Assembly: GCF_000337535.1 (NCBI RefSeq)
Contig: NZ_AOIP01000040.1
Coordinates: 61,339-122,965, forward strand
Direction: 5' to 3'
DNA: 61,627 nt
From: Natrialba aegyptia DSM 13077
Lineage (GTDB): Archaea; Halobacteriota; Halobacteria; Halobacteriales; Natrialbaceae
The notes beneath the pieces were generated by a model. It did no database searches. It saw only the letters and a program-made list of their open reading frames with translations, and was not told the origin of the DNA. Of the stretch, positions 4,646-54,218 are shown piece after piece. Position numbers and translations under genes: made by a program. Positions within the stretch are counted from its first letter, which is position 1. Each line of letters opens with the position of its first letter.

Positions 4646-4800
4646 TATGGCGGCTGGCTGATAGCGACTCTGGCCTGCCGGTGCCTAGGAGAGCAGTGCT
4701 CTCGTGCGGTTCATCGGAACGCTCCGCGTTCTGAGGACGTTTCACCGTCGCGGGTCACTATTGGTGAAATCGCTGTCAAGATTAACGGTGAGTGGTCTTC
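4646..4800 (+). mobile_element. Remnant of an IS6-family element with hairpin insert
   Basis: The stretch aligns by eye with the middle of the IS6-type transposase gene at 53.6 kb. Both have a ctggctgayagcg segment, then a hairpin with stem GAGAGC/GCTCTC (4689-4703), then a hairpin with stem GAACGC/GCGTTC (4717-4731), then a tcgcgggtc segment. After these comes a frame reading AVKINGEWS, similar to the start of the IS6 catalytic domain. No intact frame or terminal repeat remains, so this is a decayed fragment between two housekeeping genes. Confidence 0.6.
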
Positions 4801-53399: not shown

Positions 53400-53458
53400 G
53401 GCACTGTCTAGTTAGCGCAGTTTGAGGAACGAGCAGGTCGTAGAGTTAGTTCGGATCC

Positions 53459-54207
53459 ATGCTCGCAGACCTGCTCAGCAAGAGCTACGCGGCGGAATTT
53501 GATGAATGGTGGGAGCGTTCGCCGTCGGGCACCACGCGACCGGTTGTTCGCTTCGAGAAACACAAGCGATTCTTCGCTCACTCGGCGTTGAACCCTCTCA
53601 TCAAGCGATCTGGCACTGGTACATCGCCTGGCTGACAGCGTCCCAGACCCGCCGACGTCCACGAGAGCGGCGCTCTCGTGCGGCCTCTTGGAGCGCAAAG
53701 CGCTCCAACGGTCGGCGAACCGAAGATTCGCTCGACAGCAGAACGCTTTGCGTTCTGCGGACGGCGCAGCCGTCGCGGGTCGCGGTTGATGAACCCGCTG
53801 TCAGGATTACTGGCATCCGATCTTGGGAGTACGCTGCAATAGACCTTGACACGAATCTCATTCTCGATGTAGTGCTCTTTGGACGGCGAGACACCGATCC
53901 AGCTGCTGCGTTTCTGCATGGACTTACCGAGAAACACGATCTCTCCGACGCTGAGTTTCTCGTCGATGGTGCTGGCTATCTGACTGCCCTCTCTCGAGTA
54001 GGATTGAGCGGTTACCTCACCTATGTCGACCGAAGCCACATCGAAAAGTGGTTTCATACCCTCAAAATTCGGATTGGCCGCTTCCATAACTCATGGGTCG
54101 GCAGCCGGGCGAGCGGCAGAGAATGGCTTGAACAGTTCGTACACGACTATAACACACAGCGGCCGAATTAGTCACTCAACGGACAGACGCTAGCGGAGGT
54201 GCTAAGC
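53459..54207 (+). pseudogene. IS6-family transposase, broken by frameshift, hairpin insert and nonsense codon
   Basis: Homology starts MLADLLSKSYAAEFDEWWER and, after a frame change near 53,506, continues VGAFAVGHHATGCSLRETQA. The catalytic domain begins at PSRVAVDEPAVRITG (first Asp of DDE), then TNLILDVVLFGRRDTDPAAA, DAEFLVDGAGYLTAL with the second Asp and HIEKWFHTLKIRIGRFHNSW with the Glu. A TAG at about 54,169 replaces the Gln codon of the usual RPNQSLNGQT; the reading frame then continues SLNGQTLAEVLS to the final stop. Before the catalytic domain, about 37 codons (RERRSRAASWSAKRSN and onward) of palindromic DNA are inserted in frame. Confidence 0.85.
53662..53774. repeat. Block of four perfect hairpins inserted in the transposase gene
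   Basis: Four consecutive perfect stems are present: CGAGAGC/GCTCTCG (53,662-53,678), TTGGAGCG/CGCTCCAA (53,688-53,708), CAGAACGC/GCGTTCTG (53,739-53,757) and GACGGC/GCCGTC (53,760-53,774). Two of them recur, in the same order and position, in the IS6 remnant near 4.7 kb. The whole block reads in frame without a stop. Confidence 0.8.
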
Positions 54208-54218
54208 TAGACAGTGCC

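Follow-up and report, generated by a model that had tools for sequence, protein, structure and literature searches.

The hairpin block found inside an IS6 transposase gene of the window (the whole stretch of Natrialba aegyptia DSM 13077 DNA that was analysed, 61,627 nts) appears, from comparison of its copies, to belong to a transposase-free family of mobile palindromic DNA in Halobacteria, in which modules of ~50-57 nts with two hairpins each are nested in one another. We give this reading a probability of roughly 85%. The core of this element is precisely present or absent, without target duplication, at several different sites and, being 17 codons long and frequently free of stops, it can persist within proteins as a segment in frame. 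Whether or not it holds the core, the outer module breaks the transposase in IS6.

The gene belongs to a decayed, ISHtu2-like IS6 insertion sequence (53400-54218, on the forward strand like all the window features given here, with the inverted repeats GGCACTGTCTAG and CTAGACAGTGCC). Compared to block-free IS6 copies, the whole insert is 106 nts long (53654-53759, boundaries set against the block-free relative L041 from Natribaculum longum), while it is 107 nts long in most long IS6 copies. It separates the HTH part of the gene from the DDE domain (PF13610 DDE_Tnp_IS240, E = 5.5e-7) and consists of two nested modules. The outer two-hairpin unit (CGTCC...GGACG) is formed by H1 (53660-53680, CACGAGAGC-GGC-GCTCTCGTG) and H3 (53738-53758, GCAGAACGC-TTT-GCGTTCTGC, then GGACG), and the core (TCTTGG...CCAAYGGTC...TCGA, 53686-53735) carries H2 (53688-53708, TTGGAGCGC-AAA-GCGCTCCAA) and Hmid (53714-53731, GGCGAACC-GAA-GATTCGC), which is imperfect in the window copy. 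One base of the core has been lost here, giving 50 nts instead of the 51 nts found elsewhere. The block folds very stably as RNA, at -88.7 kcal/mol compared to -64.6 kcal/mol for shuffled sequences (z = -5.7), and none of 200 shuffles folded as well.

A reading made from the sequence alone had described this block as four perfect hairpins over 113 bases, interrupting the transposase just before its catalytic domain. The array is real and is inserted before the DDE domain; however, the insert contains H1, H2, H3 and the imperfect Hmid within 106 nts, and the fourth hairpin of that description (GACGGC-GCA-GCCGTC, 53760-53774) was ruled out as part of it, as the same palindrome is found in block-free IS6 relatives, including L041. 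This is the native IS6 palindrome and the insertion target, its arms being extended by GACCCGC (53646-53652) and GCGGGTC (53775-53781). Together, the native hairpin and these outer arms make up the IS6 codons D-P-P-T-A-K-P-S-R-V, which are present in the block-free copies. This IS6 copy is a damaged pseudogene: ahead of the block it has lost 1 nt (CACT-GGT) and, farther upstream, 27 nts, and there is a premature TAG at 54169. At the second locus noted in the sequence-only reading, an IS6 remnant (4646-4800), a homologous block does lie at the homologous place (4687-4738, E = 4.6e-4 with R1, a covariance model of the whole block), but in a short form with H1 and H3 and without the core.

We then compared IS6 copies with and without the block. 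In 56 block-bearing records, in which a few loci are represented twice, the inserts measured 56 nts (27 copies), 107 nts (18), 106 nts (8), 105 nts (2) and 53 nts (1), the short and long forms differing by one 51-nt unit. The length is 56 or 107 nts in 45 of the 56 and equals 2 mod 3 in 46 of them, so that the transposase frame is normally broken; both halves of the gene are intact in only seven copies. The reading frame that had seemed to be kept through the block in the window is an accident of decay. All the IS6 blocks belong to one sequence subfamily and share a single insertion point, identical to the nucleotide, which falls within the 5′ arm of the native palindrome (GACCCGCCGACG^GC-GAA-GCCGTCGCGGGTC), where a 4-nt GACG duplication may accompany the outer module. 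In a tree of 50 copies with 14 block-free rows, calculated with the insert left out of the alignment and with rough bootstrap support, block presence or absence changes at least 13 times, which for 14 block-free rows means no clustering. A single clade of block-bearing copies was rejected (p-AU 3.7e-73), and near neighbours can have opposite block states (L122/L041, L149/L011 and L040/L330). This scattered presence implies that the block was gained, or precisely lost, many times at one position within a single native palindrome, by repeated insertion or excision. Hence, the comparison of transposases with and without the block, which the sequence-only reading had proposed, does not bear out its notion of an IS6 lineage with an in-frame cargo, since the usual insert breaks the frame and the block-bearing copies form no lineage.

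The presence of a single block subfamily at a single IS6 nucleotide position could also mean that the block is not mobile and was captured once in the past, spreading since then by gene conversion and only among IS6 copies. We consider this unlikely as an account of the block, as the core has several further locations, among them host genes for which clean empty sites exist, and as no allele linked to the block was found near the IS6 junction, leaving no trace of the flank co-conversion that such a process would produce. Within IS6, short-tract gene conversion between copies is an alternative to fresh transposition, given that all the IS6 blocks are of one subfamily.

Evidence for a mobile palindromic family comes from outside IS6. 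With BLAST and two covariance models, R1 and R2 (the latter built on the core), the element was found over the class Halobacteria, with R2 matches in 97 of 391 genomes at E <= 1e-4 and ~80 copies scoring more than 45 bits. Among the named carriers are Haloterrigena, Natrinema, Natrialba, Natronococcus, Haloarcula, Halorientalis, Halapricum and Haloglomus, and in a phylum-wide sample of 197 genomes (E <= 1e-6) only Halobacteria gave matches. Matches to R1 that were weak (42-60 bits), some of them to other hairpin arrays, were left out of the family count. The low-match genomes G165 and G222 had weak matches only, there was no R1 match in the Haloquadratum walsbyi plasmid PL47, and a phage collection gave no real match to the element. 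The core aligns without gaps over 51 columns in sets of 27 and 43 copies taken from different contexts, and it is open in all six frames in 34 of 68 cores, compared to 0.7% of mononucleotide shuffles. The base following the core is C in most insertions, and no fixed target tetranucleotide of the IS605 type was found at core insertions. Beside block copies, weak matches to HgcC RNA (RF00062, below the gathering score) were seen in L152 (1171-1285) and L108 (849-931).

The genome searches found copies inside other genes, which the sequence-only reading had proposed to look for. Besides the linker of the outer module, the core occurs by itself in the N-terminal region of TnpB (GTGG^CAACGA), in TnpB C-termini ('GDA|PVDVR' and 'DDS|PQDG'), between HSE and PVET in TnpB C-termini together with an outer module, and also in host genes and intergenic DNA. 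Pfam identified carrier genes as TnpB (OrfB_IS605, Cas12f1-like_TNB), anthranilate synthase and flavin amine oxidoreductase. The copies in TnpB, TrpE, PurL and an FAD oxidoreductase are in frame, in keeping with the likeness to the in-frame palindromic elements of Rickettsia that had been proposed, and the small mobile element that had been one of the options put forward is supported by these copies and by empty sites for TnpB, TrpE and PurL.

At the empty site in the N-terminal part of TnpB (GTGG^CAACGA), the DNA alignment shows exactly 51 nts extra and no target duplication. A query with the L228 TnpB matched 81 plasmid records and, among the matches listed, the alignment starts at residue 22, past the 17-aa segment. 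Some copies share a site by descent and not by independent insertion, as at this TnpB position. In six of its seven copies (L217, L219, L227, L236, L242 and L246), the Hmid loop GTA gives an in-frame TAG, and in the L228 copy the loop is GAA and the 478-aa TnpB ORF is open; three loop bases thereby decide whether the gene stays open.

At GCCACG^CGCCGCGG, TrpE orthologs from two species of one genus (L320 and L321) are distinguished by precisely the 51-nt core, with no target duplication and with both ORFs open, and three more congeners are also without most of the outer palindrome at this site. When aligned to PDB 7bvd, the TrpE insert falls between two consecutive residues of the structure. 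In PurL, a 102-nt in-frame composite adds 34 codons that are missing from five of five congeners, giving an ORF of 765 aa compared to 717-733 aa, and the alignment with solved PurL structures runs up to ~residue 433 and resumes past the insert. The insertions in IS6 and TrpE lie in palindrome arms, and targets without a palindrome are TnpB (GTGG^CAAC) and the outer-module linker. As the inserted segments lie between domains, where length varies, one might take them for ordinary variable protein linkers or low-complexity sequence with no mobility. We give this almost no credence: the same 51-nt length and the same ends recur in genes unrelated to one another, on either strand and in more than one frame, precise empty sites exist in congeneric orthologs (TrpE L320/L321 contradict it directly), and in IS6 the frame is broken.

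We also examined the stems for compensatory changes. In the core, 98.0% of the stem cells are paired, compared to 37-53% in slid controls. Double changes occur in 10 of 17 stem pairs, with 85 double-change cells compared to 20.8 ± 5.2 after shuffling, a value reached in none of 500 shuffles, so the covariation of stem bases that had been suggested as a check of the block is present. The contrary picture raised in the sequence-only reading, a conserved segment of the protein with no copies elsewhere and no compensatory changes, is contradicted on all three points. Among the ~730 stem cells, there are 6 G-T and 11 A-C, i.e., wobble letters are scarce on both strands. A selected RNA would be expected to have more wobble pairs on its own strand, and their scarcity on either strand points to DNA hairpins rather than RNA.

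This bears on the possibility that the block controls transposase expression, of which an RNA structure limiting it had been raised in the sequence-only reading. Translation of the transposase would be limited or shifted by a cis-acting or small RNA, for example by programmed frameshifting across the hairpins. Such a role would be in line with the very stable RNA fold, the covarying stems and the predominance of 2 mod 3 inserts with both gene halves intact in 7 of the 56 copies. We nevertheless hold it to be very improbable, because of the scarcity of wobble letters, the occurrence of the core in both orientations relative to genes as well as in intergenic DNA, the fact that these are only seven of the 56 IS6 copies, and the outcome for 10 loci searched against Rfam 15, where no family exceeded its gathering score.

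Most loops are GNA/TNC or AAA/TTT, and either orientation can be found at one and the same site. The d(GCGAAGC) mini-hairpin is very stable, and the GNA loops recall it. Template switching between inverted repeats has a published signature, namely homogenised arms together with an inverted spacer (PMC8604942). Given this signature and the two loop orientations, the covariation may be mutational and not selected; it could come from template switching alone.

For the mobile palindromic family, we propose that the element would move in a folded form, either single-stranded DNA or a cruciform, and would often settle in or beside other hairpins, with its enzymes probably supplied in trans, an IS200/IS605-type HUH transposase being a candidate. 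Polymerase template switching would then keep the arms identical and flip the loops. A bolder version, which we regard as doubtful, is that these are autonomous hairpin-directed DNA elements that enter existing hairpins without a dedicated transposase, with polymerase template switching or the ligation of hairpins as possible routes, nest in one another and add segments of 17 or 34 residues to archaeal proteins.

Several known systems resemble the family. The SMR-A elements of Haloquadratum walsbyi (HqIRS42/43/55) are ~110 bp long with terminal inverted repeats, cause no target duplication, have no known transposase and prefer palindromes and other mobile elements as targets, including the palindromes of IS605-type transposons/PATEs (PMC3119063). 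The present elements, likened to them by description, are also haloarchaeal and transposase-free, form composites of 102-107 nts, give no core target duplication and have a CGTCC/GGACG stem in the IS6-type outer module that recalls the SMR-A inverted repeats. Their insertions in IS6 and TrpE lie in palindrome arms and others lie in TnpB, which may correspond to the SMR-A targets. However, SMR-A elements lie mostly outside the transposase ORF and were described from one species (PMC3119063), whereas the present family has a nested 51-nt core, lies in frame in housekeeping genes and is spread over Halobacteria. The palindromic elements of Rickettsia (RPE) are ~150 bp long, rickettsial and dispersed, with an unknown transposase (PMC10969869, PMC3733652). 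Compared by description, both are palindromic and in frame in unrelated genes, including those of metabolic enzymes, but ours are archaeal, modularly nested and 51 nts long, or 102-107 nts as composites.

CGTC-tagged REP elements/REPINs carry CGTC repeats in five bacterial phyla and have loops of 4-5 nts (PMC3733652). The outer module, most copies of which terminate in GGACG (CGTCC on the opposite strand), is like two such units placed face to face, but the loops here are of 3 nts and the core has no CGTC tag. PATEs include 52-bp terminal-only versions (PMC3119063) and are similar in having two near-terminal hairpins in ~52 bp and no target duplication; they have no inverted terminal repeats, in contrast to the outer module. 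In a non-systematic survey, we met no IS605 transposon bounded by these two hairpins, and a full-text search for haloarchaeal in-frame palindromic elements gave only the Haloquadratum paper and general reviews. On their descriptions, we place the family among the transposase-free palindromic mobile elements as a separate new form, rather than assigning it to SMR-A, RPE or CGTC REP. If this is true, protein-coding mobile palindromes, so far described from Rickettsia in the literature consulted, extend to Archaea. Congeners whose TrpE differs by exactly 17 codons, or whose PurL differs by 34, are natural experiments, and genetically tractable hosts become available for the long-open question of how transposase-less REP, RPE and SMR elements move.

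Further modules were observed around the core. A third outer module (TCTCGCGGACGCTGTCCGCTCGANTCATCCGCGGAGC-NNN-GCTCCGCG) hosts it in host-gene regions, in the arm of the second hairpin (L307, G083:C2:30948; L308, G077:C2:3631328; L311, G023:C1:2991100; L306, G061:C2:152168). In L300, L301 and L225, the core lies within another outer module (GCAGCGAGGGACC..GGGCGC..GTGAGCAG), the unit of which is in tandem across an ambiguous base in L301. More hairpin modules and tandem arrays (GGCGTTCGCAAGACC..GGGGACG; GTCGTTCGAGAGAGC..) were seen in L205, L214, L215, L218 and L226, and in L213, L216, L220 and L222. These extra modules and arrays suggest that Halobacteria hold a large set of related palindromic modules.
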